Origin: a virus
Strand: one strand, 5' to 3'
IMG/VR virus record: IMGVR_UViG_3300045972_000132
Location: 1-64,000 of that record
DNA: 64,000 nt
Shown: positions 453 through 61,264 of the stretch, in pieces
Layout: every line of letters starts with the position of its first letter
Numbering within the stretch: the stretch's first letter is position 1
Position numbers and translations under genes: made by a program
Notes under the pieces: generated by a model
What the model saw: the letters and a program-made list of their open reading frames with translations, nothing else
Told to the model about the DNA's origin: nothing
The model's database searches: none

Positions 453-889
453 TAGGGAATCCACGATACGTCTGGACCGGCCCAGTAGGGTACCTGATAA
501 CCAGATCCCGTCAAGCACGCATAAATTTCATCGATCTTCTGCACACTTACAGCACTAAGGCTGATACCAATTAGAGCCTTCTTCTCCACTTCGACCCTCG
601 CACAACCCTTACATATTAATTTGGAATGCCATCCACCAGGACCAAATAAAATCATAGCCTGATTAGCAAGCGTCTTGAAGCATTGGCATGTGTAGTTACT
701 GGTGGTGACGCTAGCACCAGCCTCAATAATTTCTCTATTTACGACTTCGACCGGTATTGTTAGGGAAGATGCGTGGACCAGGTTTGCATGTTTATTGCAA
801 CAGGACCCTATAGTGAACGTATCATTTCCAGCACTGACAATATCAAGTCCTCTTTTAGGCGGTCGGCGCTTAGTTGGCTTATCGTGCAT
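452..889 (-). CDS. Hypothetical protein with cysteine pairs
   Basis: The ORF codes for 145 residues of unrecognised family. It carries cysteine pairs (CC near residue 30, CxC near 69, CKGC near 95) that could bind a metal. The ATG at 889 has a plausible ribosome site (GAGGG) just upstream. It overlaps the end of the VWA gene by 82 bp, which is long for a phage overlap, so a later non-ATG start cannot be excluded. Its stop overlaps the ATG of the initiator-like gene. It is the penultimate gene of the minus-strand operon. Confidence 0.55.
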   Translation of the reverse strand: MHDKPTKRRPPKRGLDIVSAGNDTFTIGSCCNKHANLVHASSLTIPVEVVNREIIEAGASVTTSNYTCQCFKTLANQAMILFGPGGWHSKLICKGCARVEVEKKALIGISLSAVSVQKIDEIYACLTGSGYQVPYWAGPDVSWIP

Positions 890-2409: not shown

Positions 2410-3251
2410 TAAGCCCCCTTAAATCGCGCCGAACACCTAGTCATAAACAGGGTTCTATCGTTCTCCGATTCGAATTTTCCAGAAATCAAGCTGATTGACT
2501 CCTTGAGTCCAAGCATCGGGTAGATCTCTACCCACTGGCAAAGGTCTCTAGTGCTTAACTTATATTGGAGTGCATTGCCATTCCTAAGGTCGGATGAAAC
2601 CACTAGAATTCCTTCAAGGAATGCCTTCTCAGCAGTCGGGTAAAGAGTCTTCAGAATGTGCATTTCTTCTTTATCAGAGGGATACGATACTTCCTTAAAT
2701 AGGAAGCGGCTCTTAAAGTCTTCATTAAGGGAGTACACGCCACCATATGCAGAGCTATTCATGGTTCCAGTTACCCATAGCTTGCACCCCGGCTTCAGCT
2801 TAAAGATTCTCTTGCACTCAGGGACACTGATAGCCCTTCGGAAGTCACTAATTCCGTTGAGCATCTTCTGGATTTGAGGAGGTAGAGCATTCACTTCTTC
2901 CAAGCATAGGATCGCTGTTCCGGTTTCATTAGCTACCTCGATAGCGTTCGTCAGGTCCCCTAGGACGAATGGAGTCAGGTTTCCCTCAATGATGAAAGTT
3001 CCTGTGAGGGTGGACCGACGAGTATCTTCCGAGCACTCTGAGACAATCAAAGGTATCTTGTTATCCTTGGCAAAAGACTGAATCGAGAGCGTCTTGGAGA
3101 CACCCTTTGGCCCATGAAGAATCAAGTTCTTCGGCACAGCCTCGGATAAAATTTTGCCAAACAGCTTATGGAGATCCCGCGTGTCTACAAACTTTGGTGT
3201 GTCGTGAACCAGAAAGGCTTCGCTAGGTAGTGCTCGCACTTCGACAGTCAT
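2409..3251 (-). CDS. MoxR/CobS-type AAA+ ATPase
   Basis: The protein has 280 residues. Walker A is GPKGVSKT (47-54) and Walker B is AILCLEE (113-119). A sensor-1-like TGTMN lies near 165 and a candidate arginine finger sits in the SRF segment (R182). This layout matches the CobS/MoxR group of AAA+ ATPases. It is directly coupled to the VWA gene downstream, so the two very probably form one ATPase/adaptor machine in the cytoplasm. The length is typical of CobS-like proteins, and no truncation is seen. The family call is firm; the substrate is unknown. Confidence 0.85.
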   Translation of the reverse strand: MTVEVRALPSEAFLVHDTPKFVDTRDLHKLFGKILSEAVPKNLILHGPKGVSKTLSIQSFAKDNKIPLIVSECSEDTRRSTLTGTFIIEGNLTPFVLGDLTNAIEVANETGTAILCLEEVNALPPQIQKMLNGISDFRRAISVPECKRIFKLKPGCKLWVTGTMNSSAYGGVYSLNEDFKSRFLFKEVSYPSDKEEMHILKTLYPTAEKAFLEGILVVSSDLRNGNALQYKLSTRDLCQWVEIYPMLGLKESISLISGKFESENDRTLFMTRCSARFKGA

Positions 3252-3715
3252 TATGTCTCCTCAATCAAATCCTTTAACGCACCAAGTGGTTTTACTCGCA
3301 ATGTCTTCTTTTCAACCCTAATGGCATCTACTTCTGCGCTGGTAAGCTTTCCAGTTTTTACTAGGAAGTCTATTTTGGAAGGGCTTGGAGTAGTCTTTAC
3401 CGTTACATCCATACCAGATTCAATAGGAATTCCCTTTTCAATCAACAAGCTTCTGAACAACTCCGCATTAGGGGCGTTGTCTTTGGAGCTAGTCAGAGAA
3501 ATATTTACTAAATTGGTCTGAACCTGACCACTTTTTACTTCATCAATGATCAGGTCACGAAGGGCTTCTTGGCGAGACTTCACCCTGGACTGTACACGAG
3601 ACAGAGCCGCCCGTACAAGGCTTTTCTCAGCTAGGTCCATGTCATCTATAGGATAGGCAAATAAATAGTTACCAAATACATCCTCTAGATATGCAAGAAG
3701 CTCATCGGATTCCAT
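3251..3715 (-). CDS. Hypothetical protein upstream of the AAA+ ATPase
   Basis: This 154-residue protein is predicted mainly helical in its first half (residues 10-65, rich in Lys, Arg and Glu). It has no motif I recognise, no signal peptide and no membrane segment. It lies between the KH-domain gene and the AAA+ gene in the same minus-strand operon, with its stop touching the ATPase start. That position suggests a link with the ATPase/VWA pair, for example as an adaptor, but nothing in the sequence proves this. Confidence 0.6.
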   Translation of the reverse strand: MESDELLAYLEDVFGNYLFAYPIDDMDLAEKSLVRAALSRVQSRVKSRQEALRDLIIDEVKSGQVQTNLVNISLTSSKDNAPNAELFRSLLIEKGIPIESGMDVTVKTTPSPSKIDFLVKTGKLTSAEVDAIRVEKKTLRVKPLGALKDLIEET

Positions 3716-3716
3716 T

Positions 3717-4004
3717 CTACTTGGCCTTCCGGGGGTCGATGATCTCGATTACCATTCTGCGGCCCCTCGCGGAGGCAATTTTTGAGAATAGCTCCCTAAG
3801 GGTCTTGAGCGTACTTCCCTGCTTGCCGAGAATCTTGGAAACATCGGATGGATCCGTCTTTATGGTGAGAAGGCTGGTTGGCGTATCAGCCCCGTTCTCG
3901 GTTACTTCGACATCATCTGGATTGTCTACTAGACCAATGCAGACCTCTTGAAGAAGTTCCTGTAGGGGCAGCGGCTCAATTGATTCACTTGATTTCTCGT
4001 TCAT
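3717..4004 (-). CDS. KH-domain RNA-binding protein, KhpA-like
   Basis: The protein has 95 residues. The second half matches a type II KH domain: an ILGKQGSTLKTLRELF segment carrying the GxxG loop (GKQG) between two helices, then a strand with RRMVIEI. This is the layout of bacterial KhpA (YlqC), a small RNA chaperone. The N-terminal 45 residues are acidic. GGAG lies about 9 bases upstream of the ATG, which overlaps the end of the Cys-rich gene by 20 bp. A role in binding phage or host RNA is inferred from the fold. Confidence 0.78.
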   Translation of the reverse strand: MNEKSSESIEPLPLQELLQEVCIGLVDNPDDVEVTENGADTPTSLLTIKTDPSDVSKILGKQGSTLKTLRELFSKIASARGRRMVIEIIDPRKAK

Positions 4005-4230
4005 TTTTCTTTACTCCCAATTGCTTCAGTTTTAGTTTTACTTGTGTTGCCTTAGTTAGCATGTCGCAGAAAAAATTATGTGGACATTCTGCACAAGCGT
4101 TGTTAAGCATCTCTTGACACTTATTCACCTTTAAGATGATGAGTCTATCATTAAAGGTTTCTGTATCCTTGATGAACCCCTCGGCTTCTGCTTGAGCGAT
4201 CAGAGCTTCAATTTGACTATTTACGCTCAT
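3985..4230 (-). CDS. Small protein with clustered cysteines
   Basis: The protein has 81 residues. Four cysteines occur in one stretch (C-x7-C-x2-C-x5-C, with a His after the third), suggesting a small metal-binding site. The rest is charged and helical, with a Lys-rich C-terminus. It overlaps its neighbours on both sides (14 bp upstream, 20 bp downstream), so it is part of one coupled operon. I do not recognise the family. Confidence 0.6.
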   Translation of the reverse strand: MSVNSQIEALIAQAEAEGFIKDTETFNDRLIILKVNKCQEMLNNACAECPHNFFCDMLTKATQVKLKLKQLGVKKNEREIK

Positions 4231-4771
4231 ATGGATATCCGTGATGGCCTGTCGGTATTAAGACGAAATCCTGACTACTAGTGACTGACATTGTAGATGA
4301 GCTAAATCCTTGAAACTGTGGGGCTTCGGTTAAAGTCATGGAGGGTGGGTAGACAGTTGTCTGTGTATTTATCATAGGATCTGGACTAGACACTTCATGT
4401 ACTTTCCAGAACCCCGCTATGCGCTCAGTTTCTGATGGCGACACATATTTATGATCAGAGGGATTTTGTAGAATAAGACCCTTTGTATATGCCTCCTTCA
4501 GCTTCTTCTCGGCTTCAAGTCGGTCGTGAACCCTTAGTAGATTTAGATATCCCGCTAGATCAGCCAGAGTATCTTCGTCAGGGCCTTCGGTTCCTGATGT
4601 CTTGATTCGACTCAGCTTGTCATCAATTCGTACAAGAAGCTGCTCCCGAGTACTTGCTTTTGAAAAAATACGAATTGGTTCTAGGGCAGAATTTCCGTAC
4701 TTTTTATTTTTAGCTAGAAGTAGTTCCTTAGTCTCATCACAAACTTTTACAATCATTTCCTGAACACCCAT
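4217..4771 (-). CDS. Nmad1 (DUF1599)-like protein
   Basis: The protein has 184 residues. Residues 1-90 resemble the nucleotide-modification-associated domain 1 family: an AKNKKYGNSALEP segment, then a region with RIDDKLSRI and a helix ending in DLAGYLNLL. These phage proteins are found near base-modification genes and resemble MazG-type all-helical nucleotide hydrolases. The C-terminal 80 residues are Ser/Thr/Pro-rich and have no match I know. AAGGAG lies at a good distance before the ATG. It is the first gene of the leftward operon, driven by the promoter at 4804-4833. Confidence 0.65.
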   Translation of the reverse strand: MGVQEMIVKVCDETKELLLAKNKKYGNSALEPIRIFSKASTREQLLVRIDDKLSRIKTSGTEGPDEDTLADLAGYLNLLRVHDRLEAEKKLKEAYTKGLILQNPSDHKYVSPSETERIAGFWKVHEVSSPDPMINTQTTVYPPSMTLTEAPQFQGFSSSTMSVTSSQDFVLIPTGHHGYPYERK

Positions 4772-4899: not shown

Positions 4900-5247
4900 A
4901 TGTTACCCATCCTACAAAATGAAGGATTTCTTTTTGATACTGTTTTTGATTACATCAGCGGCTTAAACGCAACCAGAGTGGGCGATAAAAGCCTAGAACT
5001 TGTAGTGCCAGGATATAAAATTGATAAAGTAGAACTAGATGGTAGGGTTCTACGGGTCGGAGGCAAGCTAGAATCCGCATTGAAGGATTCTGGTAGAAAG
5101 GCGACTTTTGAATGGTCTACTAAGCTATGGTTCACTCCGAACCCTGACGCGGTAACCGCTGAATCTGCAAGCGGAGTTTTACTAATTCATCTAGAGGGTT
5201 TCGAGACCCAAAAGAAGCCAAAACAAGTACAAGTAAAGATTAGCTAG
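4900..5247 (+). CDS. Hsp20/alpha-crystallin-like small heat-shock protein
   Basis: The protein has 115 residues. The pattern of short strands matches an alpha-crystallin domain: LELVVPGYKIDKVELDG, then LRVGGKL, then a late strand GVLLIHLEG that resembles the A-x-x-x-G-V-L-x-I motif of Hsp20. Small heat-shock proteins hold unfolded proteins, and phage copies occur in T4-like cyanophages. The ATG at 4900 is chosen because GGAG lies 7 bases upstream and the promoter -10 box lies at 4859-4864, so earlier in-frame starts would lie at or before the transcription start. The gene converges on the small zinc-finger gene and overlaps its end by 8 bp. Confidence 0.7.
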   Translation: MLPILQNEGFLFDTVFDYISGLNATRVGDKSLELVVPGYKIDKVELDGRVLRVGGKLESALKDSGRKATFEWSTKLWFTPNPDAVTAESASGVLLIHLEGFETQKKPKQVQVKIS

Positions 5248-5530
5248 TACGACGCCAGAGAGTTAAATCAAGTGTGTTAACGGTGTCCTTTAGGTCGGAG
5301 TAAGTCGGCCTAAAGGACTCGTTAGCTAGTCGCACCATCCAAGGTTCGTCTTTGATTGATGCAGACAACTGATATAATCGGTCACGTACTTTTCGGATAG
5401 TATCTTCAAGCTCTACTACTCTATCAATCGACTTTATGCAGTCCGAGCAGGACCAAAGCTTTACTACTCCAGTAGAGTAGACACACCCTTTTGACAAATC
5501 TTTGTCATTTTGACATACGTGGCAGATCAT
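5240..5530 (-). CDS. Small putative zinc-finger protein
   Basis: The protein has 96 residues. CxxC at residues 3-6 and a second CxxC near 28-31, with another Cys at 16, suggest a zinc knuckle at the N-terminus. A helical, charged segment follows (about 37-70). The ATG overlaps the stop of the CCA-adding enzyme gene (ATGA), so it is the last gene of that operon. I do not recognise the family. Binding to nucleic acid or protein is a guess based only on the cysteines. Confidence 0.6.
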   Translation of the reverse strand: MICHVCQNDKDLSKGCVYSTGVVKLWSCSDCIKSIDRVVELEDTIRKVRDRLYQLSASIKDEPWMVRLANESFRPTYSDLKDTVNTLDLTLWRRTS

Positions 5531-6882
5531 TTAGTTCCCTTGTAGTTTAGTTTTATGTAGCCCAACAGGGCCTCCTTCTCGTTCGGTACTTCACCGTCCA
5601 CTACGGCTGCGGTAGCCATGGTCTTAATGGCTCCAATTTCTTTTCCAGTAACTCCGAATTCCGCAGAAATAGTGTGGCCGTCCAGCGCCAGCTTAGAAGT
5701 ATTGAATCCAGAAACTTCCTTGAAGGATGCCAGTTTGGCACGGATTCCGTCCATTACCTCCCTAGCATGTTCCCCGTCCTTGTGAGCATAATAATCTGCT
5801 TCCCGAAGATCGACTGCTTCTCCGGTATACTCACCCAACCGAGCACTAAATCTACGCAGAGCCTTAGTACCAAAATCTTCACCGGGGCACAGATGCTCCG
5901 TTACCATGGTGGAAATTTTCTTGACGGTTTCCTCTGCGGCCTTCAGGCCGCGCAAAATTTCTGCGGCCATCTTCCCACCAACCTCGTCATGCTTGTAATA
6001 ATGGTGAACCCCATCATCCCCGACGCTCATCGTCGCAGGCTTTGCAATATCGTGCAGCAACGCAGCTAGCCTGACATCGACCGAGAAGCCTCTCTCAACC
6101 GCGTAAGATACCGCCAGAAATACATGCTCATCCAGCGTCAGGTAGTGATGGGGATTAACTTGGTCATAGCGGACGCTCTTGGCAAATTCAGGGATGATTT
6201 CCTGAATCTTCCCAGAAACCACCATCATCCTCAGAGCGTACAGGATATCAGCCGACTCCTTAGCTGACAGCATCTTAATCAGTTCCGCATATACCCGTTC
6301 ACGGGCTACAGACTCCAAGCTGACGCCGAACATGGCTACCACAGCCAGAGGGTCAATCCACATCCGCTTAGTTGCGGCGAATCTAAACGCCCTCAGAATT
6401 CGCAGAGGATCCTCTTCAAACCGGTCCTTGGCAACCCCTACAGTTCTCAGGCAGGAGTCCGCAATATCACTACGACCATTAAATGGATCGATGTACTTGC
6501 CTGTCAGCAGTTCACATGCAATCGCGTTGCATGTAAAGTCACGACGGGCCAAGTCTTCTTCGATTTTAATGGACGGGTCCGTTAGGATTTCAAAATCTTT
6601 ATGACCAACCCCTGTGGATCTTTCGAATCTGGGCAAAGCAACGTCAACAATATCACCCTCAAACTCAGCTTTAATTATTCCAAATGACTGCCCCACGAGG
6701 TCGAACTTCCCCGGCAGAATCCTCATTACTTCCTTCATGGGGACACCACAAACTACGATGTCGAGATCGTCGGATTTAATTCCTAGAATACGGTCACGGA
6801 CAGAACCGCCTACTTCATAGACGGTCCCACCCATTTCCGCGATTTCAATTGCAAACTTTAGTACGGCCTTGTTTTTGGTCAC
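5527..6882 (-). CDS. cca: CCA-adding tRNA nucleotidyltransferase with HD domain
   Basis: The protein has 451 residues and belongs to the class II nucleotidyltransferases. Visible motifs are GGSVRDRILG (25-34), the catalytic DLD (39-41), RRDFTCNA (113-120), IDPFNGRSD (131-139) and EDPLRILRAFRFAA (157-170). The second half carries an HD phosphohydrolase motif ALLHDIAKP (274-282). The enzyme adds or repairs the CCA tail of tRNAs. The GTG start overlaps the stop of the RlaP-like gene by four bases. Its pairing with a second nucleotidyltransferase suggests tRNA or RNA repair during infection. Confidence 0.93.
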   Translation of the reverse strand: MTKNKAVLKFAIEIAEMGGTVYEVGGSVRDRILGIKSDDLDIVVCGVPMKEVMRILPGKFDLVGQSFGIIKAEFEGDIVDVALPRFERSTGVGHKDFEILTDPSIKIEEDLARRDFTCNAIACELLTGKYIDPFNGRSDIADSCLRTVGVAKDRFEEDPLRILRAFRFAATKRMWIDPLAVVAMFGVSLESVARERVYAELIKMLSAKESADILYALRMMVVSGKIQEIIPEFAKSVRYDQVNPHHYLTLDEHVFLAVSYAVERGFSVDVRLAALLHDIAKPATMSVGDDGVHHYYKHDEVGGKMAAEILRGLKAAEETVKKISTMVTEHLCPGEDFGTKALRRFSARLGEYTGEAVDLREADYYAHKDGEHAREVMDGIRAKLASFKEVSGFNTSKLALDGHTISAEFGVTGKEIGAIKTMATAAVVDGEVPNEKEALLGYIKLNYKGTK

Positions 6883-7952
6883 GTTTCTCTCCCATTCATT
6901 TTACTGATCACTAGGGTACAAAGCGTATCCAGAAACTCCATGTCAACGCTTGCCGGAAGCTTAGTCGTCTTCACAGCTTGTGTAACCTTATAGTCGAGAT
7001 CATCCGCCAGCGCAATGATTTCCTCATACGAATAACGACCATTGCGGATCTCAAGAAGTTCCTTTGCATCTGGACGCTTTACTTGCAAAGTTCCTGTCTC
7101 TAGAATTTCGACACACATTTTCATGAGTCGAACTAGATGCATTGCGTGCTTGGTATCATACCCAGAGCGAGCTTCAAGCTCAGAACGAACCTTGTTTCGG
7201 TTCTTCTTCCAATCCTCATATGAGGCAAATTCCTTCAACGCAGCCTTGAAGGCTCGCTCTTTCCTGAGAATATCAATTAAGGAAGAGTCCATTCCAACGC
7301 ACTTGGCGGCGGCTACCTCTAGATCCTGAGAAGCAGCCTCGCTCAATGCGGCGCGGAATTTTAACTTTACCGAGAGTCTATCTGCATCCGACAGGCTCTC
7401 TAGATCTGGGTCCCACTCCTTGATTTTATCTTCCACAAGCGCAAACATTGCGTCCCTTTGATCCTTAGGAATCAAGGGTACTTCGGCTAGGCCAAATTCA
7501 GCCCTAGTGGGATGACTTGTAGGTGGACTCTTCAGCCATTTATAGTGACCCTTAAGTCTTGCAAGCTGAGATCTAGCATAACCAGTAAAGGTGTGCTGGA
7601 CTTTCTTGCTAAGAAATCGCTGTCGGTTATCTAAGATCAACATGAACGCTGGATGACAGTCTAAATAGTCCGACTTGTCTAGGAACATTAGCTCCAGAAC
7701 GTTCGGGTTGGCACCGGAGGCCAGCCGGAAGTACTTCCTGATATCATACATAACAACATCATATGGCTTAGAGCACTGATAATCCTCAGTAACCCCGGCA
7801 AATGACAAATATCTACTTGTAGGTTGAACGAAAATGCCTCTAAAATCTTCATCAGAAGATTCGATGTTGGTCCCGTATGAGTGAGAGCCGCCTCTCCCAA
7901 GCGCAAGAACTCTCCCCGGACTTTTGATTTCATCTAGAATTTTAGAGGTCAT
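6879..7952 (-). CDS. RlaP-type nucleotidyltransferase (pol beta superfamily, RNA-repair family)
   Basis: The protein has 357 residues. The N-terminus has the minimal nucleotidyltransferase signature GSHSYGT (22-28) followed by SDEDFRG (33-39), which carries the metal-binding acidic pair. The layout and length fit the RlaP family (predicted nucleotidyltransferases, PF10127), common in large phages and linked to RNA repair. Substrate and reaction are not established for this protein. It sits directly before the CCA enzyme with a four-base overlap, so the two are co-expressed. Confidence 0.8.
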   Translation of the reverse strand: MTSKILDEIKSPGRVLALGRGGSHSYGTNIESSDEDFRGIFVQPTSRYLSFAGVTEDYQCSKPYDVVMYDIRKYFRLASGANPNVLELMFLDKSDYLDCHPAFMLILDNRQRFLSKKVQHTFTGYARSQLARLKGHYKWLKSPPTSHPTRAEFGLAEVPLIPKDQRDAMFALVEDKIKEWDPDLESLSDADRLSVKLKFRAALSEAASQDLEVAAAKCVGMDSSLIDILRKERAFKAALKEFASYEDWKKNRNKVRSELEARSGYDTKHAMHLVRLMKMCVEILETGTLQVKRPDAKELLEIRNGRYSYEEIIALADDLDYKVTQAVKTTKLPASVDMEFLDTLCTLVISKMNGRET

Positions 7953-7968
7953 TTTGTTGATCGCTTTC

Positions 7969-8175
7969 TTAAAGTGCGTGATGACTCAAATAGCAAGCAC
8001 CAGCACCACAGTAATTAACCCTGCATGGTTTACCGATATTACTTACGGTTCTGCACTCTACCGCACATGGTTTTCCACAGACAGGACAAAACAGGGATCC
8101 GTGAGTTTTACAAAACCTATCAACGGCCTGTTCCTTGCATTTCCCGTCTACCTTAATAAACTCACATTCACTCAT
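7969..8175 (-). CDS. Small cysteine-rich protein
   Basis: The protein has 68 residues and 9 cysteines, including FCPVCGKPC and CGAGAC, so one or two zinc sites are likely. The ATG at 8175 is chosen over an upstream in-frame start because it overlaps the end of the preceding gene by 8 bp, as is usual here. I do not recognise the family. Confidence 0.6.
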   Translation of the reverse strand: MSECEFIKVDGKCKEQAVDRFCKTHGSLFCPVCGKPCAVECRTVSNIGKPCRVNYCGAGACYLSHHAL

Positions 8176-8428
8176 TGGTAGGGTTTTCCTTGCGGTAATC
8201 GAATTCCAACTTAGCCAGACGCGCAGCCTCACCACGGTCTAGGATCACCTGAACCGTAATCCCGATGTGCTCCCGGTTTCCAGTACCGCGATCTACCCAC
8301 TTGAACTTCTTTCCTGAATACTTCTTCAGGTTTGCTAACTGCTCATCTGCCGACCAACGGTTGTCCCACTTGAACGACGTTCCGGCAGTATCACGATTGG
8401 TTTCGAAAAGCACAATAGTTTCACTCAT
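8168..8428 (-). CDS. Hypothetical small protein, first gene of the second leftward operon
   Basis: The protein has 86 residues. The ATG at 8428 is chosen because AAGGAG lies 6 bases upstream and a good promoter lies at 8457-8485; an in-frame start at 8485 would fall inside the -35 box. The protein is basic in the middle (KKYSGKKFKWVDRG). It shows no recognised domain, signal peptide or membrane segment. It heads the operon that contains the Cys-rich, RlaP and CCA genes. Confidence 0.65.
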   Translation of the reverse strand: MSETIVLFETNRDTAGTSFKWDNRWSADEQLANLKKYSGKKFKWVDRGTGNREHIGITVQVILDRGEAARLAKLEFDYRKENPTNE

Positions 8429-8456
8429 TTTTCGCTCCTTGGTTAAGGTTTCCGTG

Positions 8457-8485
8457 AATCTACCCCAGCTTGACTCAGTAGTCAA
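8457..8485 (-). promoter_or_regulatory. Leftward promoter with perfect inverted repeat at the -35 box
   Basis: On the minus strand, TTGACT (8480-8485), a 17-bp spacer and TAGATT (8457-8462) form a promoter with transcription expected near 8450. TTGACT-CAGT-AGTCAA (8470-8485) is a perfect 6-bp inverted repeat over the -35 box. The other leftward promoter also has a palindrome over its -35 box, so a shared repressor is possible. Confidence 0.7.
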
Positions 8486-8508
8486 TGGATTTCTAATCCT
8501 GCTTGCGC

Positions 8509-8514
8509 TATACT
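8509..8514 (+). promoter_or_regulatory. -10 box of the exonuclease gene
   Basis: TATACT ends 7 bases before the ATG at 8522. No ribosome-binding site is visible. The expected transcription start falls on or next to the A of the ATG, so the mRNA is probably leaderless. No strong -35 box was found. Confidence 0.5.
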
Positions 8515-8521
8515 GCCACTC

Positions 8522-9076
8522 ATGAACAATAAAGAACAGATCTATGTGTCGTGCGACGTAGAGACCAACGGACCAATTCCCGGCGAGTTCTCGATGCTTT
8601 CCTTTGGTGCCGCAGCCTTTTCCGAATCTGGGCAGCTAGTAGGCACCTTTGAAAGAAACCTAGAGACTCTCCCCGGTGCTGGAGAAAATCCAGATACCAT
8701 GGCTTGGTGGCAAACTCAAGCTAAGGCTTGGGAAGAATGTCGTAAGGACCCTCAGGACCCTAAGAAGGCTATGGAAGAATTTTCAAAATGGGTAAAGTCC
8801 TTCAATAAAACCCCTATCTTTGTAGCCTTCCCAGCAGGATTTGATTTTACATTCCTATACTGGTATTTAATTAAATTTACTGGTTACAGTCCCTTCTCCT
8901 TCTCGGCCCTAGACATTAAATCATACGCTGCCGCCAAACTTGGAGTAGACTATAAGTCTGTAAACAAGAAGCTTTTAAAAAAGCACTGGCCGGTAGTAAC
9001 AGTACATTCCCATGTGGCCCTTGAGGACGCAATCGAGCAGGGTCAAATCGCGGTTCAGATGCTAGGATTAAAATAA
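8522..9076 (+). CDS. DEDDh-type 3'-5' exonuclease
   Basis: The protein has 184 residues. Exonuclease motif I is CDVETNGP (D12, E14), the second acidic residue is in AGFDFTF (D108), and the third motif is HVALEDA (H164, D169), giving the DEDDh set. It is a stand-alone nuclease domain without polymerase, and could act on RNA or DNA; the RNase T/Rv2179c-like group is the closest I can suggest. It starts the rightward half of the window. Its start codon appears to coincide with the transcription start. Confidence 0.8.
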   Translation: MNNKEQIYVSCDVETNGPIPGEFSMLSFGAAAFSESGQLVGTFERNLETLPGAGENPDTMAWWQTQAKAWEECRKDPQDPKKAMEEFSKWVKSFNKTPIFVAFPAGFDFTFLYWYLIKFTGYSPFSFSALDIKSYAAAKLGVDYKSVNKKLLKKHWPVVTVHSHVALEDAIEQGQIAVQMLGLK

Positions 9077-9109
9077 TGTTGTATAGTTAGGTTGCTAACC
9101 GCGCGATTA

Positions 9110-9118
9110 TGCTATAAT
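9110..9118 (+). promoter_or_regulatory. Extended -10 promoter
   Basis: TGCTATAAT (9110-9118) is a perfect extended -10 element. Its upstream flank has the inverted repeat GTTAG-GTTG-CTAAC (9086-9099). It probably drives the genes from 9162 onward. Confidence 0.75.
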
Positions 9119-9161
9119 TTCAACTATTCTTAAGTTTGTTTCCCCTAAGGAGCTTAAACAC

Positions 9162-9728
9162 ATGTCCAAGAACCCCCAACAAATCCTGCAAGAGTCCCGC
9201 CGTCTAGCAGGTCTTTCTCCGATGTACGAGGCCGCTGGCGAGGCTTATGACTTTGCAAAGGTAGCTTCTAAGGAATATACCGGCGCACCCGTCCCCCAAA
9301 AGGATGGCGTTGAACTCAAGGCTGGTGGAGGCGAAACCTCTCCTTCTGCTGGTGGTTCTAAGGCTGGCCCAAAGCAAACCACCAAGACTGCCGCAGCCAA
9401 GCCCGCCGCAAAAGACGGCGTTGAACTTGATCAGGGTAATTTCTCCCCAGACGCCAAGGCTGTTAAGGCTGGCGGTGCAACTGGTGCAACTGCCGGTGCA
9501 ATGGCGAACTCAGCCCCCGCAAAGCCTGCTGCAAAAGACGGCGTTGAACTTAAGGCTGGTGGTGACTCAAAGGTTGCCAAGGCTGGCGGCGCGGTTCCCG
9601 GTGACGCTAACCGTGAAGATGACGGTCTAGAGGCCGAACCCGATGCCAAGTCGGAAGATGTAGAAGTTCTATATCGTGAGGCTCGCAATGCTCGCATGTA
9701 CGAACTTGTTCAAATGTTTTCAGCCTAA
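9162..9728 (+). CDS. Ala/Gly/Lys-rich protein with KDGVEL repeats
   Basis: The protein has 188 residues of low complexity. The segment KDGVEL occurs three times (near residues 47, 84 and 126), twice as KPAAKDGVELKAGG or a close variant. An N-terminal helix (about 5-20) and an acidic C-terminal helix flank the flexible centre. AAGGAG precedes the ATG at a good distance. No family is recognised. A virion or internal head protein is possible given the nearby late genes, but is not shown. Confidence 0.65.
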   Translation: MSKNPQQILQESRRLAGLSPMYEAAGEAYDFAKVASKEYTGAPVPQKDGVELKAGGGETSPSAGGSKAGPKQTTKTAAAKPAAKDGVELDQGNFSPDAKAVKAGGATGATAGAMANSAPAKPAAKDGVELKAGGDSKVAKAGGAVPGDANREDDGLEAEPDAKSEDVEVLYREARNARMYELVQMFSA

Positions 9729-10260: not shown

Positions 10261-10718
10261 AATCCATTACTTCCCTAGTTGTATTATTTAGCTTTACAGC
10301 CTGTGCAACAGCACAACCCCTTACAATAACTTTAATACCTAGATCAGATTGGGTGGAGGTAGCGAAACTACCTCCTACCCCAATGGAAGACGTTCTAGTC
10401 TCTCCCTCTAGCACTGCCGTAGGTTTATCGGCTGGAGAGAAGGCACCCTTTGGTGGTGTTCTACTTCCCGAAGACAAACTATCTAGATCTCTAGCATACA
10501 AGGCTAGATATGACGAGTTAAGAGTCAATTACACAGAAGATCGCAAAATATGGACCTCTCACCGTGAGCTATATGAGGATCAATTAAAAGCCTGTGAGAA
10601 GAAATTTAAAGAGCTACAGCCTGGATGGTTTGACCAACATAAGCTAGAATTAGGAATCCTAGGTGGAATCGTCCTAGGAATCGCAGCCACTGCTGCCGCA
10701 GCCAAGGTTACTAAATAA
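10254..10718 (+). CDS. Candidate unimolecular spanin (lipobox plus C-terminal membrane helix)
   Basis: The protein has 154 residues. An N-terminal signal with a hydrophobic core ends in FTAC (Cys17), a lipobox-like site for an outer-membrane lipoprotein. A charged helix follows (about 73-121), then a hydrophobic segment at about 131-150 (GILGGIVLGIAATAAAA) that would sit in the inner membrane. This is the topology of u-spanins such as T1 gp11, which join inner and outer membranes at lysis. Phe at lipobox position -3 is less usual. No holin or endolysin gene is recognised nearby. A general structural lipoprotein is the alternative. Confidence 0.5.
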   Translation: MLKSITSLVVLFSFTACATAQPLTITLIPRSDWVEVAKLPPTPMEDVLVSPSSTAVGLSAGEKAPFGGVLLPEDKLSRSLAYKARYDELRVNYTEDRKIWTSHRELYEDQLKACEKKFKELQPGWFDQHKLELGILGGIVLGIAATAAAAKVTK

Positions 10719-24766: not shown

Positions 24767-25810
24767 ATGACAATCAAAGGAACCAAGCACAATAAAAAAA
24801 GAATATATCTATCTGAGGAAGTAAAAAATAGCATGGTAATGCAATACAGGGACGCTATGGATAAAGGAGTAATGCTGACACAGAAAATGCTCGCGGATAA
24901 ATATGGCATAACCCAAGTAGCCTTTAGTCAGATTTTAAAAAAACACGGAGTCAAAGCCAGGAGTCTAATTGAAGCCAACCCTGCGTCTTTTGATGTAGAG
25001 GCCGCCATAAAGTACTACTTCAGCGATCCTAAGATATCCTTATCAGACGTAGGTAAAAAATTTGGAGTCTGTGGGGATGTTATACGTATGAAGTTAGTGA
25101 AGCGAGGTATTCCCACTAAGCAGATGTCTGCTTACGCAAAGTATTCTTTTAACAGAAACTTCTTTAGCACCATTACACCAGAAAGCGCCTATTGGGCTGG
25201 TTTTCTAGCAGCAGATGGCAATATAGATACACCTGGACTTGCAGTTAGGATAGGAATTCATCCCAAGGATATCGAACTATTAAATAATTTTAAACTGTGT
25301 ACAGGGGTGGAGGTCCCGATTCAATCCAAAATAAACAATGGTAACCATCCTTTTGTATCTTTAGTAGTCAGCAGTAAGGATTGGGTGATAGACCTAGAGA
25401 AGAACTTTAATGTCGTCCCAAACAAATCACTGATTCTAAAACCCCCAAATATTACAGATCTAGATCTCAAATGGCACTTTATACGTGGTGTGTTTGACGG
25501 AGACGGTTCAGTAGGTAAATCAGGAACCATGATAAATTTCATATCCGCATCCCCCGCATTCTTCAATTGGATTCTTGAAAATTGCGGAAAGGAACCGGGC
25601 CACATTCAAATTTGTATGAAACAGAAAAAGACAAGTTTCGATTTTTATGAGGCTGCACAGTCTGCATTTTACTCTGGCGACTCCGCAAGAGAAATTTCAT
25701 CTAAGATGTACAAGAACTCCACCCCCACTACTCGACTAGATCGTAAATTTAGACGCTTAATTACTCACCCAGACTCCCCTCTTCGCCAGATGTTTTCAGA
25801 TGAAGTCTAG
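24767..25810 (+). CDS. Free-standing LAGLIDADG homing endonuclease
   Basis: The protein has 347 residues. It carries two LAGLIDADG helices, WAGFLAADGN (143-152) and FIRGVFDGDG (238-247), so it should act as a monomer with two active-site acids. The first 120 residues hold two helix-turn-helix-like DNA-binding segments (about 35-62 and 88-114). The gene has its own promoter after the capsid terminator. It is more AT-rich than its neighbours and uses other codons, which fits recent insertion. No intron is needed, since the capsid gene is intact. Confidence 0.9.
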   Translation: MTIKGTKHNKKRIYLSEEVKNSMVMQYRDAMDKGVMLTQKMLADKYGITQVAFSQILKKHGVKARSLIEANPASFDVEAAIKYYFSDPKISLSDVGKKFGVCGDVIRMKLVKRGIPTKQMSAYAKYSFNRNFFSTITPESAYWAGFLAADGNIDTPGLAVRIGIHPKDIELLNNFKLCTGVEVPIQSKINNGNHPFVSLVVSSKDWVIDLEKNFNVVPNKSLILKPPNITDLDLKWHFIRGVFDGDGSVGKSGTMINFISASPAFFNWILENCGKEPGHIQICMKQKKTSFDFYEAAQSAFYSGDSAREISSKMYKNSTPTTRLDRKFRRLITHPDSPLRQMFSDEV

Positions 25811-25831
25811 ATGACTGTTTCCAAGGGTCTA

Positions 25832-25860
25832 TTGACACCAAGGCAATTAAGTAATATCAT
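25832..25860 (+). promoter_or_regulatory. Strong promoter next to the start codon of the nuclease-fusion gene
   Basis: TTGACA (25832-25837), a 17-bp spacer and TATCAT (25855-25860) match the consensus at 6/6 and 5/6. The ATG at 25866 is only 6 bases beyond the -10 box, so the transcript is probably leaderless. Confidence 0.75.
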
Positions 25861-25865
25861 GTGAC

Positions 25866-27485
25866 ATGACCAACTTCCATGAGTGGATTAAGACAATACC
25901 TAGTGCCTTTGATGAAATTAATTTCATCGACCTACATGACACCGTTAGTGTTGAAAAATATTCAAAACCTCAAGGTAAGCAGTTCTCTAAAATTACCTTG
26001 TATTCCAGTGAATGGGAAAGCAACCCTGAAGTCTGCAAGAGCTTCATCGGGTCCAAGCTAGGTCTTTTTGATACCAAGCTAGGTGCCAGAAAGTGCGAAC
26101 TAAAGACGGTAGATAAATTAACCGGTAGAGCCTTCCTAGATAAAAATCATATTCAGGGCGCTAGCAACCTTGCCCTACAATACTTTGGGCTATTTTTTAA
26201 AGATGAACTTGTGGCCCTAGCCTCCCTCGGCAGGCACACTCGTAATATCGCTAAGAACCGTATAGTTCTAGACCGTCTATGTTTCAAAGGTGGGGTCCAC
26301 ATCACAGGTGGCTTTGGAAAACTACTGAAGGCGTGCATCAAGTGGGCGAGTGATATGAAGTATGATGAGCTAATTACCTTTAGTGACAACCGAGTCTCTA
26401 GCGGGAACGTATATGAGGTCCTTGGCTTCACGCCCGAGGTCCGATATAACCCAGACTATTTTTATGTTGATTCCTCTGGTGCGGCTTATTCCAAGCAAAG
26501 CCAGAAGAAAGACATAACTGATTGTCCTGAGTCCCTTACTGAGTTTGAATGGGCCTCCTATAGGGGACTCAAACGCATCTATGATCTAGGGAAAATACGC
26601 TGGGTCCTGAATATCAACCCCTCCAACCAAACCTGGCAGAACAAGAATTCGGAAAAATGCGCCAAAATGCACCAATCGGGCGTATTCAAGCACTCGCACA
26701 TTAGGGGTTATTTCTATTCAGGAAAGAACAACGCATCCATCTACTATGGCAGTTCTTATGAGCTACGATGTCTATCCCTTCTTGAATGCGATTCCAGAGT
26801 AGCTTCATTTCGTAGGGCGGATGCTTTTAAATCCGACAGTGGTAATTGGAGAAACCCGGACCTACTAGTAACATTCAATGATGGTTGCTCCTCTATATTT
26901 GAAGTAAAACCTGAAGCTCTACTTACAAATCCGGCTGTTATAGATCAGATCTCCGACTCGGAGAAGTACAGCAAAGCGCACGGGTACGGCTTTAAGATAT
27001 GGACCGAAAAGGATAGTGAGCTTCTAGCGGATAAAGATATCATCAAGTGGGCGGTAGATTTCTTAAAGGAAACCAACAACGACACCAAGTGGGCAGAGCA
27101 CAAGAAGCTGGCTAGAATAGCCACGGCAGCTAGATACAATGAAAAACATCCCGACATAGTTCTCGATATATTCTGTTCATTCTGTAATGAGTCTCACAAG
27201 GTCCGAAAGAAGTCATACGACGCTAATATTGCTAAAAACAAAACCTATATATGTGAAAAACACGGCGGACATATCGCGGGAAGTAAACCCAAGCTAGCCC
27301 TTCGGAAGGAAAACCCATTCGCAGTCGAACTAAAGAAGCAGTGCATTACATGTACGTTTGTAAAACCCTTCGAAGACTTTCACAAGGTCTCTCGCTCTAG
27401 GGATGGCCTGGATCGGTACTGTAAGGTGTGTGCTCTAGCTCGGCAAAACGAACGTAGAAAGGCTCGAAAATTGTGCTATACTTAA
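25866..27485 (+). CDS. GNAT (Mom-like) domain fused to a PD-(D/E)XK nuclease and zinc fingers
   Basis: The protein has 539 residues in three parts. Residues 85-205 resemble the Mom-like GNAT fold that accompanies some phage homing-type nucleases: FLDKNHIQGASN, a LVALASLGRH strand, and SDNRVSSGNVYEVLGF. Residues 280-385 look like a TnsA/PD-(D/E)XK nuclease: GSSYELRCL (E299), PDLLV (D332) and EVKP (E346, K348). The C-terminus has a Cys-based finger (C437, C440, C463) and a CxxC...CxxC finger (C493, C496, C519, C522) of the kind next to HNH domains. A selfish mobile nuclease is most likely; whether the GNAT part is active is unknown. Confidence 0.65.
   Translation: MTNFHEWIKTIPSAFDEINFIDLHDTVSVEKYSKPQGKQFSKITLYSSEWESNPEVCKSFIGSKLGLFDTKLGARKCELKTVDKLTGRAFLDKNHIQGASNLALQYFGLFFKDELVALASLGRHTRNIAKNRIVLDRLCFKGGVHITGGFGKLLKACIKWASDMKYDELITFSDNRVSSGNVYEVLGFTPEVRYNPDYFYVDSSGAAYSKQSQKKDITDCPESLTEFEWASYRGLKRIYDLGKIRWVLNINPSNQTWQNKNSEKCAKMHQSGVFKHSHIRGYFYSGKNNASIYYGSSYELRCLSLLECDSRVASFRRADAFKSDSGNWRNPDLLVTFNDGCSSIFEVKPEALLTNPAVIDQISDSEKYSKAHGYGFKIWTEKDSELLADKDIIKWAVDFLKETNNDTKWAEHKKLARIATAARYNEKHPDIVLDIFCSFCNESHKVRKKSYDANIAKNKTYICEKHGGHIAGSKPKLALRKENPFAVELKKQCITCTFVKPFEDFHKVSRSRDGLDRYCKVCALARQNERRKARKLCYT
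27474..27482 (+). promoter_or_regulatory. Extended -10 promoter at the end of the nuclease-fusion gene
   Basis: TGCTATACT (27474-27482) lies over the last codons of the nuclease gene. It can restore expression of the structural genes from 27521 on. The flanking TACTT-AACCG-AAGTA (27479-27493) is a shorter inverted repeat than the late boxes. Confidence 0.6.
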
Positions 27486-34706: not shown

Positions 34707-34728
34707 TACGTTATAAGTGAAGTATAAT
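34707..34728 (+). promoter_or_regulatory. Tube-gene promoter with late-box operator (copy 1)
   Basis: TACGTTA-TAAG-TGAAGTA (34707-34724) is an imperfect copy of the late inverted repeat, running into TATAAT (34723-34728). The right arm is intact and the left arm has two changes. No good -35 box is visible at 17 bp. Confidence 0.6.
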
Positions 34729-34739
34729 GTTGTTCATGG

Positions 34740-34780
34740 GTAAGGGTTGTCAGGTCAGACTAGGATCTGACAGCCCTTAC
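34740..34780 (+). promoter_or_regulatory. Strong hairpin at the 5' end of the tube mRNA
   Basis: A 14-bp stem (34740-34753 with 34767-34780, one G-T pair) with a 13-base loop begins about 5 bases after the expected transcription start. TTTTT and the ribosome site GGAGG follow at once. It could protect the 5' end, attenuate transcription, or stop read-through from upstream. Confidence 0.8.
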
Positions 34781-34796
34781 ATTTTTGGAGGTTAAG

Positions 34797-36696: not shown

Positions 36697-36725
36697 TTGT
36701 ACTTACTTCACTTTTGAAGTATAAT
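36697..36725 (+). promoter_or_regulatory. Promoter with the best late-box palindrome (copy 2)
   Basis: TTGTAC (36697-36702), a 17-bp spacer and TATAAT (36720-36725) form the promoter. The spacer and first -10 bases hold TACTTCACTTTTGAAGTA (36704-36721), a perfect palindrome of 7-bp arms around CTTT. The ATG at 36732 lies 6 bases after the -10 box, so the transcript is leaderless. It drives the gene for a predicted DNA-binding protein. Confidence 0.75.
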
Positions 36726-36731
36726 GATTGA

Positions 36732-37238
36732 ATGGTAAATTCAATCGAGTGGGAAAAATCGGTTCTAGAGCAGCACTCCGTATGTGCTAACTGCGGTGAT
36801 AGTAAGAATTTAATTGTGCGGCCTCTAGTGGCACCACTAAACGGGGGGCAATCAAGAGCTTCCAACGCCTCGGTTCTCTGCCGTGGCTGCGAGATCAACT
36901 CCTTCTTATCCAATACAGAAACCCAAGAAAAACAGCTAGTGAACTTTTGGCTCTCCGCATCACTCTATGAGTGGCTCAAGACAAACGCCGAGAAGTCTTC
37001 AATGGGTTCCTTGATTCGATATATGATCTCCCGCTACACTGGTTCCCCTAGTGCCTTCGAAGACCTTGCTCTTTGGGTAGATGTCCAATCTGAAGTAAAG
37101 GTAAACATCTGGGTTCCACAGAAGGAATATCTGGAATTCAAGACCCTAATTGAGGAGCGCGGCAGTACTGTCACCGACGCTCTCAAGTCCCTCTTACTAA
37201 TTTTCAAAAACGAACAAACCGAGGCCCACCATGACTAA
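36732..37238 (+). CDS. Zinc-finger protein with two ribbon-helix-helix-like units, putative regulator
   Basis: The protein has 168 residues. C18, C21, C50 and C53 form a CxxC...CxxC site like that of HNH nucleases, but the catalytic His positions appear replaced (IVRPLVAPLNGG), so it is probably a degenerate HNH. Residues 68-102 (VNFWLSASLYEWLK and a SLIRYMISRY helix) and 121-159 (VKVNIWVPQKEYLEFK and a DALKSLLLIF helix) each look like a ribbon-helix-helix unit. Two such units in one chain could bind an inverted repeat. Its own promoter holds the best late-box palindrome. It may be the regulator of the late boxes; a mere remnant of a mobile HNH gene is the alternative. Confidence 0.5.
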   Translation: MVNSIEWEKSVLEQHSVCANCGDSKNLIVRPLVAPLNGGQSRASNASVLCRGCEINSFLSNTETQEKQLVNFWLSASLYEWLKTNAEKSSMGSLIRYMISRYTGSPSAFEDLALWVDVQSEVKVNIWVPQKEYLEFKTLIEERGSTVTDALKSLLLIFKNEQTEAHHD

Positions 37239-38010
37239 TGCAGTTGACATTGCAGTACGAGCAATTGATGACATGAAGTCTTCTACCGGGCTATTTAAAC
37301 TCCCTGGTGGATACTTGGATGAAAAGGGCATCTTACACGATGAGATTCAAATCAGAGAAATGACCGGTGCTGAGGAGGACATCCTAGCTGGTAAGACGGA
37401 TTCTATCACTCTGAAGCTAAACGCTATTATGGCTGGATGTCTAGTGAGGATCGGTTCCATCACAGATCCTGGTGAAATTGCCAAGGTTATCAATCTTTTG
37501 CCCTCAGGGGATCGTATTTATCTTCTAGTTCTGATTCGTATGGTTACACTAGGGGACGACTTTGCCTTCGATGAGAAATGCCCTGAGTGTGGCGACAAGG
37601 CTACCTACAATATTTTTCTAAGCAGCTTGGAAGTTACACCAATGAAGGACAAGAACAAGCGCGAGTTTGAATTCACTGCACCTTCTGGGAAGAAAATCAT
37701 CATAAAGACCCTCCTGGGAAAAGATGAGGGCTTGGCATCTAAATACGGTGAAGAGTATCCAAATGACGTTGTAAGCGCCATCATGCTTGCTAGAGTGGTC
37801 TCAATTGACGGTGTTCCTGCCACCGTAGAGTCCCTTAAAAAATTGGGCTGGAAGGATCGGTCCTTTGCCCGCAAGTCCATTGAATCAATTGATGGAGGGG
37901 TCGAGCTTGGGGTTACGAATGAATGCAAGAAGTGCAATTTTGAATTCACCAAGGACTTACAGATTGGAAGCCAAAGTTTTTTCTTCCCTTCGGAGACCCT
38001 GAACTCCTAG
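37231..38010 (+). CDS. Tail assembly chaperone, short form
   Basis: The protein has 259 residues. It precedes the tape measure gene and ends shortly after a slippery site. A zinc-like site is present (C117, C120, C232, C235). The family resembles the T4 gp26-type baseplate assembly proteins in the same place of other phages. It overlaps the RHH gene by 8 bp. It would bind the tape measure protein during tail assembly together with the frameshifted long form. Confidence 0.75.
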   Translation: MTNAVDIAVRAIDDMKSSTGLFKLPGGYLDEKGILHDEIQIREMTGAEEDILAGKTDSITLKLNAIMAGCLVRIGSITDPGEIAKVINLLPSGDRIYLLVLIRMVTLGDDFAFDEKCPECGDKATYNIFLSSLEVTPMKDKNKREFEFTAPSGKKIIIKTLLGKDEGLASKYGEEYPNDVVSAIMLARVVSIDGVPATVESLKKLGWKDRSFARKSIESIDGGVELGVTNECKKCNFEFTKDLQIGSQSFFFPSETLNS

Positions 38011-43032: not shown

Positions 43033-43084
43033 TACGTCAAATTTGAAGTAAACCCCTGCATTATAGCCATATTTGTGCTATAAC
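43033..43084 (+). promoter_or_regulatory. Late box (copy 3) and extended -10 promoter of the wedge genes
   Basis: TACGTCA-AATT-TGAAGTA (43033-43050) is a late inverted repeat with one change in the left arm. An extended -10 TGCTATAAC lies 26 bases downstream (43076-43084). In this copy the box is upstream of the -10 element rather than touching it, which could mean activation here and repression elsewhere. Confidence 0.6.
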
Positions 43085-53996: not shown

Positions 53997-54025
53997 GTGA
54001 CTTTACTTCACTTTTGATGTATACT
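53997..54025 (+). promoter_or_regulatory. Promoter with late box (copy 4)
   Basis: GTGACT (53997-54002), a 17-bp spacer and TATACT (54020-54025). The spacer holds TACTTCACTTTTGATGTA (54004-54021), one change from the best box. It drives the first copy of the duplicated cassette. Confidence 0.72.
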
Positions 54026-55562: not shown

Positions 55563-55591
55563 GTGACTCTACTTCACTTTTGATGTATAGT
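55563..55591 (+). promoter_or_regulatory. Promoter with late box (copy 5)
   Basis: GTGACT (55563-55568), a 17-bp spacer and TATAGT (55586-55591). The spacer holds TACTTCACTTTTGATGTA (55570-55587), identical to copy 4. It drives the Cys-rich gene and the second cassette. The shared sequence supports duplication of promoter and genes together. Confidence 0.72.
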
Positions 55592-60400: not shown

Positions 60401-61264
60401 TATAAGAGCCGGGATCCAGTGACAGACTCCAACGGGAACATATTCTTCGCCAACTTACAGAATGTTCAAAAACTAGATCCGTTTGGAAACTTGACTGTGT
60501 TTGCGGGAAGTCCAAGCACTTCGACTGATACCGGATACATTGATGGTATCGGGACCATAGCTAGATTTACCAACATCGAGCACATGTGCATTGACTCCTC
60601 CGATAATATCTACGTAGCTGATACCGGCGCGTGGAACAACTCGGGCGCGTGGGGTGTACCGGGGTCTCTTATTAGAAAAATTGATAAATACGGCAATGTT
60701 ACCACTTTAAGTGGTGCCTCTACTGCGGCTTACGCAGGCACGGGAGTGTCCGGATCCGGAAACTTAGCACAATGGATGCATATAAAAGGATTGCAGTGGG
60801 TAGCAGGTACCAGCACTACGCCAGAATACCTGCTAGTAACGGACTACTTGGATAAATGCATCAGTAAATATACCTTCAGTACCTCCACGGCTACCCTGTT
60901 GCTTGGCACCCACGGAACCGGCTTTGGTTATTCTAACTTAAGTGGTGTGGTTGTTGGTCCAATTTCAAAAAATATGTATATACTGGCTGGAAACTCAGGG
61001 TTCAACTCCTCTGCAATTATTAAAATAACTTCAGCCTTAGTCGTTTCCATATATGCAGGAAATGTGTCTTCCTTGGGACACACGGATGCTGTAGGTGGAA
61101 GTGCTCTTTTTGGAAGTTTGACAGGACTTACAGTCGATCAAGATGAAACCCTGTATGTTTGCGGCCAAGATAGTATAATTAGAAGAATTGCGTACTCTCC
61201 TACGGTCGGAACGGTAACTACGATTGCCGGGGTGTATAATGTGGCAGGTTCTAACGATTACTAG
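57494..61264 (+). CDS. Baseplate protein (gpI-type) with C-terminal NHL-like beta-propeller
   Basis: The protein has 1256 residues. The ATG at 57494 follows GGAGG by 9 bases. The N-terminal part (WDHLPMLYKNSDENGLLEA and a helical region) and the segment WIVNLINWIDKKGTAEAYRI near 505-525 are typical of tail protein I-like baseplate components. Beta-rich domains follow, then from about residue 920 to the end repeated units of the kind SDSNGNIFFAN, DSSDNIYVADTG and VDQDETLYVCGQD mark an NHL-type propeller of about five or six blades. Propellers often bind protein or sugar, so this may be a receptor-binding tip. Confidence 0.75.
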   Translation: MPVFTWPVLSPSLITPTYVDRSGVYLGMGTFDTGFFNWSKWAQMTLWDHLPMLYKNSDENGLLEAMLVGLGETMEEFRYKISKLDTLKDPLLVPTSSDANEVHLVLGPVVDSQPVIDQSGLNGWVSALGLFTAPTARFTNDDVGKYLRISGSANPLNNTKVKISSIISGTSVYTYPKLATDAVVPGILSWSVSPSVDPAADYTTVEIQAGDTSNIRLGWTLWDGLSKNEIIGKDRFPVATNNHNVLSQEALDGVVALGNDGRTYLFSKKIVFKTSDKGKPLSIRGSSIVSNNNTLWSVGSLVSSANTPTAFSGYSGISVIDAATSGREAGVTHTYPTVDANPIYFAVLNRPFIYLKKGARPLGILENSGADLSIISYTDGTISIPGMSFDAVKHVGRVIRIWGTYGVFPTTAAQFFEAKILSISDATHATLDRALPLDPGVSLNWEIRSAPTTDTANASDTSDVANMSAVDMYPPSMARLLAQEFGSDISLAERESRQRAWIVNLINWIDKKGTAEAYRIIGILSGYLVQASQLFSVRLSSIYGQMLPPNCFYEQPESVKGRFGTDGVLILTGSTIQFYSPSASFYQIDIGRCVRLRNCANPFNAKRYTISNVLDTHTVQFLASDYVSGVQTFPDTSTSWALVVLLTENPPSVAPYDEVNSDIMTSYVGSTAFSPDMFSWDPNFAPIMHVGNGPTAPVKISNSTFQVTLKDITALDYSSTSGTISIGNTVTQGSASGTVVYGSSSGSGTIWVYTTSSAQFTPGAATFTGGSLTITSTPIYTSASAGVRSGTAAVMGDSPNWTLTDSAGSIFHIISRSTVIAGTPNTYTALIESTSVPVTNSSALWKLTYVCPRLSGTNRDFAPSATMKLNYSSQVAPNNPDITEEAFIDRLAAAKPVHVTFYKSSLGRPLLGGPTTSIGAPKFGVSGLSGIGSNKFGDLIISDTGYIRTLDTNGNVKTVKGITGGAWTPYKSRDPVTDSNGNIFFANLQNVQKLDPFGNLTVFAGSPSTSTDTGYIDGIGTIARFTNIEHMCIDSSDNIYVADTGAWNNSGAWGVPGSLIRKIDKYGNVTTLSGASTAAYAGTGVSGSGNLAQWMHIKGLQWVAGTSTTPEYLLVTDYLDKCISKYTFSTSTATLLLGTHGTGFGYSNLSGVVVGPISKNMYILAGNSGFNSSAIIKITSALVVSIYAGNVSSLGHTDAVGGSALFGSLTGLTVDQDETLYVCGQDSIIRRIAYSPTVGTVTTIAGVYNVAGSNDY

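Follow-up and report, generated by a model that had tools for sequence, protein, structure and literature searches.

The locus lies in a 99,407-base virus contig (G000) from a contractile-tailed phage, whose genes include those for portal, protease, capsid, sheath, tail tube, hub and baseplate wedge; the window analysed here is a 64,000-nucleotide part of this contig. A tail-tube paralogue and two small open reading frames (ORFs) on the 5' side and a gp26-like baseplate hub gene on the 3' side flank a gene that we call the RHH gene, for the ribbon-helix-helix (RHH) units of its product. The ORF (36732-37238) is real; homologues occupy the same locus in four other phage lineages. The features of the locus are:

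36704-36721, no strand: 18-bp dyad TACTTCA-CTTT-TGAAGTA, the sole perfect copy and proposed operator, with 11 bp between the centres of its arms
36720-36725, plus strand: -10-like TATAAT, first two bases common to the box, ending 7 nt 5' of the ATG
36732-37238, plus strand: RHH gene, 168 aa, degenerate HNH finger and tandem RHH units, without a Shine-Dalgarno sequence
36783-36890, plus strand: HNH-type finger CxxC...GG...N...CxxC without the catalytic His, residues 18-53
36930-37043, plus strand: RHH unit 1, residues 67-104
37095-37232, plus strand: RHH unit 2, residues 122-167; its loop carries the G-x-S/T motif as GST
37231-38010, plus strand: gp26-like baseplate hub gene, directly 3' of the RHH gene, an order kept in five of five phages

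Several other genes of the contig deserve mention. Two endonuclease-type genes lie directly 3' of the capsid gene (24767-27485), one of them matching homing endonucleases and endonuclease VII-like proteins. On the minus strand, 808-3251 has a weak CobT-like VWA match and adjoins a CobS/AAA-like gene, and 5527-7952 holds two nucleotidyltransferase genes side by side, one of the tRNA nucleotidyltransferase type. A dUTPase ORF (L002:10470-11927, contig 73470-74927) contains an internal LAGLIDADG-like stretch that is likely an intein or a fused homing endonuclease. For the tail-tube ORF, ATG 34797 (MARS..., with GGAGG upstream) is a more probable start than the listed TTG 34785.

Homologues and domain architecture of the RHH protein

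Used as a single query, the RHH protein has no relative among viral contigs or annotated phages, and alone it matches HNH endonuclease families only, weakly and over residues 6-58. Homologues were reached through the neighbouring hub and tail-tube genes and then through profiles. The hub gene led to L004/G001, where the ORF directly 5' of the hub is 39% identical to the RHH protein; a tail-tube profile led to L024/G002. Further profiles then brought in L069-L071 as well as L074, a short contig with a Candidatus Sulfotelmatobacter MAG named in its record. Four divergent phages carry a homologue (36-41% identity), each directly 5' of the baseplate-hub gene. L073, whose HNH finger retains HH, and L075, where a short stretch matches by chance and in a different frame, were rejected as full homologues. 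When 37 more genomes from the phylum of L074 were sampled, their matches spanned the HNH part only. The hub regions of SP-15 and BRock have no annotated gene at the position of the RHH gene, and that of LR756511 has no ORF of this type at the corresponding position. In G002, the terminase and portal ORFs (1134-4421 and 5179-9609; 1095 and 1476 aa) far exceed their orthologues in length and likely contain inteins.

The zinc-binding CxxC pairs of the finger (C18-C21 and C50-C53) are invariant in all five homologues, which also keep its GG and N. The position of the catalytic histidine is occupied by VR, II, AR, VK or VV in these proteins, compared with [DHE]H in 22 of 22 HNH comparators, in agreement with the sequence-only reading that an HNH finger here seemed to have lost its catalytic histidines. 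A sequence profile matches the Gme HNH domain in the PDB (E 1.5e-3), and an AlphaFold2 model contains a bba-metal finger (strands 27-31 and 46-50, helix 51-62) whose surrounding N-terminus is aligned by VIA-align with the HNH domains of EcoKMcrA (6ghc, Z 6.4) and Gme HNH (4h9d, Z 5.8). The finger probably no longer cuts, and may act as a zinc-stabilised DNA-contact or dimerisation domain. Its HNH ancestor could equally well have been a selfish element or an ordinary HNH gene that became fused to RHH units.

The same model, built from the five homologues (mean pLDDT 79.8), predicts two beta-alpha-alpha units (strand 67-74, helices 76-85 and 91-104; strand 122-129, helices 130-142 and 147-167). 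Its top VIA-align match is F-plasmid TraY (Z 10.6 over 98 residues, rmsd 2.9 Å, model residues 66-164), and AvtR is matched at Z 6.3. Foldseek against the PDB alone returns nothing below E 1e-3, so the TraY match depends on the second look by VIA-align. Both units were already there in an earlier single-sequence model, which matched AvtR, TraY and single-chain Arc (1u9p), and structure matches in BFVD comprise archaeal-virus RHH proteins and phage HNH proteins. By sequence profile the best RHH match in the PDB is AvtR (E 1.1e-3), in register over both units, with ParG at 0.016; Pfam ParG matches three of the five family members (best E 0.0033). Pfam RHH_1 (PF01402) has no match at E ≤ 1 in four contigs, which is a profile miss rather than a structural defining feature. 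The RHH signature G-x-S/T/N between helix 1 and helix 2 (PMC2812701) is found in unit 2 as GST, GLS, GMT, GMT and GMT across the five homologues; the corresponding loop of unit 1 reads SMG, GMG or SIG, not G-x-S/T/N. Profile and model thereby bear out the earlier proposal of two RHH-like units, and two such units are what structure prediction gives for residues 60-165, the span for which that reading had called for it.

Some matches were set aside. PDB 8g8i (E 9e-6 with one sequence, 4e-3 with five) bears a name that we take to be of the kind used for designed repeat proteins. Pfam Propep_M14 and zf-C4pol each match one member, the latter under its cut-off, and Iota-toxin rows in the single-sequence PDB search are at chance level.

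An 18-bp dyad at tail promoters

The box, an 18-bp dyad of the form TACTTCA-N4-TGAAGTA, has five copies on the 99-kb contig, none of them outside the tail region. All copies lie between 34707 and 55587 and are wholly intergenic, compared with 3.8% of 18-mers. Besides the copy at the RHH gene, they are:

34707-34724, no strand: TACGTTATAAGTGAAGTA with TATAAT, 5' of tail-tube gene 34785
43033-43050, no strand: TACGTCAAATTTGAAGTA, 5' of gp25-like baseplate-wedge gene 43087; kept at the G001 orthologue
54004-54021, no strand: TACTTCACTTTTGATGTA with TATACT, 5' of gene 54051
55570-55587, no strand: TACTTCACTTTTGATGTA with TATAGT, 5' of genes 55628 and 55826

With up to three mismatches allowed, the dyad pattern has 8 matches where 3.3 are expected. 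A strict 11-position motif has five matches on the contig and none in order-1 Markov sequence, a comparison that is circular there because the motif was defined on those same five sites. The 34707 box promoter is separated from the tail-tube gene by a 17-pair hairpin followed by ATTTTT (34740-34785), and G001 has a GC-rich hairpin at the equivalent position; the 17-pair hairpin may be the terminator of the sheath operon, or an attenuator.

The four bases 3' of the box resemble TAAT (20 of 36 cells, null P 3e-4), so that the final TA of the box usually doubles as the first two bases of a -10 element. The quality of this element varies: of nine box sites, three have a poor match to it (2-3 of 6) and two an intermediate one (4 of 6). 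The -35 at box promoters is weak (best 2-4 of 6 matches to TTGACA). A Shine-Dalgarno sequence of at least 4 nt precedes none of the five RHH genes, compared with 22 of 33 structural genes. With TATAAT 7 nt from the predicted start, the layout fits the earlier description of the gene as leaderless. Only the 36704-36721 copy is symmetric at seven of seven arm positions, as had been noted of the RHH promoter, and an operator-like perfect dyad over the gene's own -10, with more copies at tail promoters, fits the autoregulation that this layout had been taken to suggest.

The box in related phages

As an independent test, the motif derived from the five G000 copies alone (TACNTNANNNNTGANGTA) was applied to other genomes at a threshold of at least 10 of 11 positions. 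G001 (84 kb) has exactly two such sites, one 5' of the RHH orthologue (73440) and one 5' of the gp25 orthologue (80157). Two sites are no more than chance would give (Markov mean 1.0); what carries weight is where they lie. G002 has three, at 39488 (5' of the RHH orthologue), 61113 (5' of a 127-aa ORF) and 10577 (inside a head gene). Local shuffling gives P values of 6e-4, 7.5e-4 and 3e-4 for motif sites in the related phages. None of 41 comparator loci (37 hub relatives lacking the RHH gene and four other phage loci) has a site at this threshold, which is weak evidence, as the comparators are fragments of differing composition.

The dyad is present 5' of the RHH gene in three phages (G000, G001 and G002), and its arms change in a partly symmetric way. 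In G002 (TACGTC/GACGTA) position 4 of the left arm is G and its right-arm partner has changed to match; in G001 position 6 is A, again matched by its partner. Such changes are as expected where a protein reads both arms. The RHH promoters of the other two phages lack the full dyad: in that of G005 (L069) a single TAACGTA half-site directly adjoins TATATT, and that of L074 has two direct GAAGTA half-sites. There is also no box in the tail-tube promoters of G001 and G002 or in the gp25 promoter of G002, indicating that the regulon is not constant. Phylogenetic footprinting supports a tie between box and RHH gene beyond a single genome.

Two further sites in these phages stand on their own. The G002 copy at 61113-61142 lies 11 nt 5' of the ATG of the 127-aa ORF, which has no clear relative in G000 or G001. 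The site in the G002 head gene (10577-10594) is a perfect 18-bp box-like dyad within LVTSDL[TK]YL, which G005 has at the matching position; the two phages differ there by a compensatory G-C/T-A change. Coding conservation may partly account for this dyad, whose location in a head gene counts against the tail-promoter reading.

Proposed regulation and relation to known systems

We consider it quite likely that the RHH protein is a box-binding regulator, and probable that it is, specifically, an autoregulator of the tail-module promoters that represses more likely than it activates. The two RHH units of each chain would fold into one RHH pseudo-dimer, whose two-stranded sheet would read one arm of the box (TACNTNA). 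The sequence-only reading had suggested that two units in one chain could bind an inverted repeat; the two units per chain stand, and the binding of the whole repeat by one chain would have to be revised, since by analogy with TraY and AvtR a chain would read a single arm. For this reason the whole dyad would be filled by two chains, 11 bp or one helical turn apart. At the gene's own, apparently leaderless, promoter and at other tail promoters, the box covers the spacer and the first bases of the -10. RHH protein bound there would most likely block RNA polymerase, so that the gene would repress itself and expression of the tail genes would be capped.

Granted a box-binding regulator, we lean towards repression, with activation or a dual action the less favoured, still appreciable, option: the position of the box over the -10 favours the former and the weak -35 leaves room for the latter. 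Taken as an explanation of the whole, an activator (or a dual regulator like AvtR) that binds the spacer of -35-less promoters, recruits or remodels RNA polymerase and so switches the tail genes on late is rather unlikely. No box promoter has a good -35, every box in the window sits 5' of tail-region genes, and AvtR goes from activation at low concentration to repression at high (PMC5569661). Against this, bases shared between an operator and a -10 mark the classic place of a repressor, RHH proteins commonly autorepress, and an activator on which its own promoter depended would have to be started in some other way. It is likewise doubtful, if conceivable, that an HNH nuclease became, through loss of catalysis and linkage to a single-chain RHH pseudo-dimer, a tail-module transcription factor that activates, or activates and then represses, -35-less late promoters and so times a tail regulon within the late programme.

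It is improbable that another phage or host factor reads the box while the RHH protein acts elsewhere. The box does abut a -10 element, two of the five homologues have no full dyad at their own promoter, and the contigs are incomplete, so that a further factor could be overlooked; but neither a sigma region 2 domain nor a Pfam RHH_1 match turned up in the four contigs, and the dyad symmetry, 11-bp arm spacing, compensatory arms and conserved site before the RHH gene all implicate the RHH protein. The sigma region 4 matches include endonuclease-type ORFs; they are weak, at least two fall in endonuclease-type or intein-like ORFs, and we did not accept them as sigma factors. A selfish, homing-type HNH nuclease that also represses its own promoter would accord with the HNH homology, with the abundance of HNH and homing-type genes in the G000 genome and with I-TevI, which autorepresses its own late promoter (PMC2988022). 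This is very improbable given that the catalytic His is lost throughout the family and present in every comparator, and that five divergent phages carry the gene at a single fixed locus, where a mobile element would occur sporadically. Least credible is a tail-assembly or structural accessory protein that has retained a DNA-binding fold: its location, flanked in every homologue by tail-tube and hub genes, would suit such a role, but both domains are of DNA-binding types and its own promoter bears a cognate-looking operator.

If the preferred reading of a box-binding autoregulator is correct, the RHH protein would represent a further transcription-factor family in myoviruses with no detected sigma factor and a clear example of a nuclease domain reused in regulation. 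A dedicated tail regulon would also bear on the balance between head and tail production in phages. With a candidate target site in hand, binding, stoichiometry and sign are directly testable.

Among known systems, single-chain Arc (1u9p) was matched by the first model, and the P22 Arc operator lies between -35 and -10 with a half-site spacing of 11 bp; natural Arc differs in being a homodimer of single RHH chains with no finger. HNH nucleases (Gme HNH 4h9d, EcoKMcrA 6ghc and cyanophage HNH proteins) share the CxxC...GG...N...CxxC layout and, in the model, the bba-metal fold, whereas all five members of the RHH-gene family lack the catalytic His and carry attached RHH units. I-TevI of phage T4 is comparable as a protein of mobile-endonuclease type acting as repressor at its own late promoter (PMC2988022), but it is an active, intron-borne GIY-YIG nuclease with no RHH. 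TraY has the RHH dimer fold within one polypeptide (PMC12117103); it differs in being a relaxosome protein at oriT, with no HNH finger and 9% identity. AvtR of Acidianus filamentous virus 6 (4hv0) resembles the RHH protein in being virus-encoded and in having two RHH units per chain, both covered by the profile match. It is a single-chain RHH regulator that acts on its own gene as a repressor and on a neighbouring gene in both directions, as activator and as repressor, with sites conserved among related viruses (PMC5569661). AvtR differs in coming from an archaeal virus, in having no HNH finger and in its binding consensus (ATnnTnnTAnnACnTT); it polymerises along about 100 nt.
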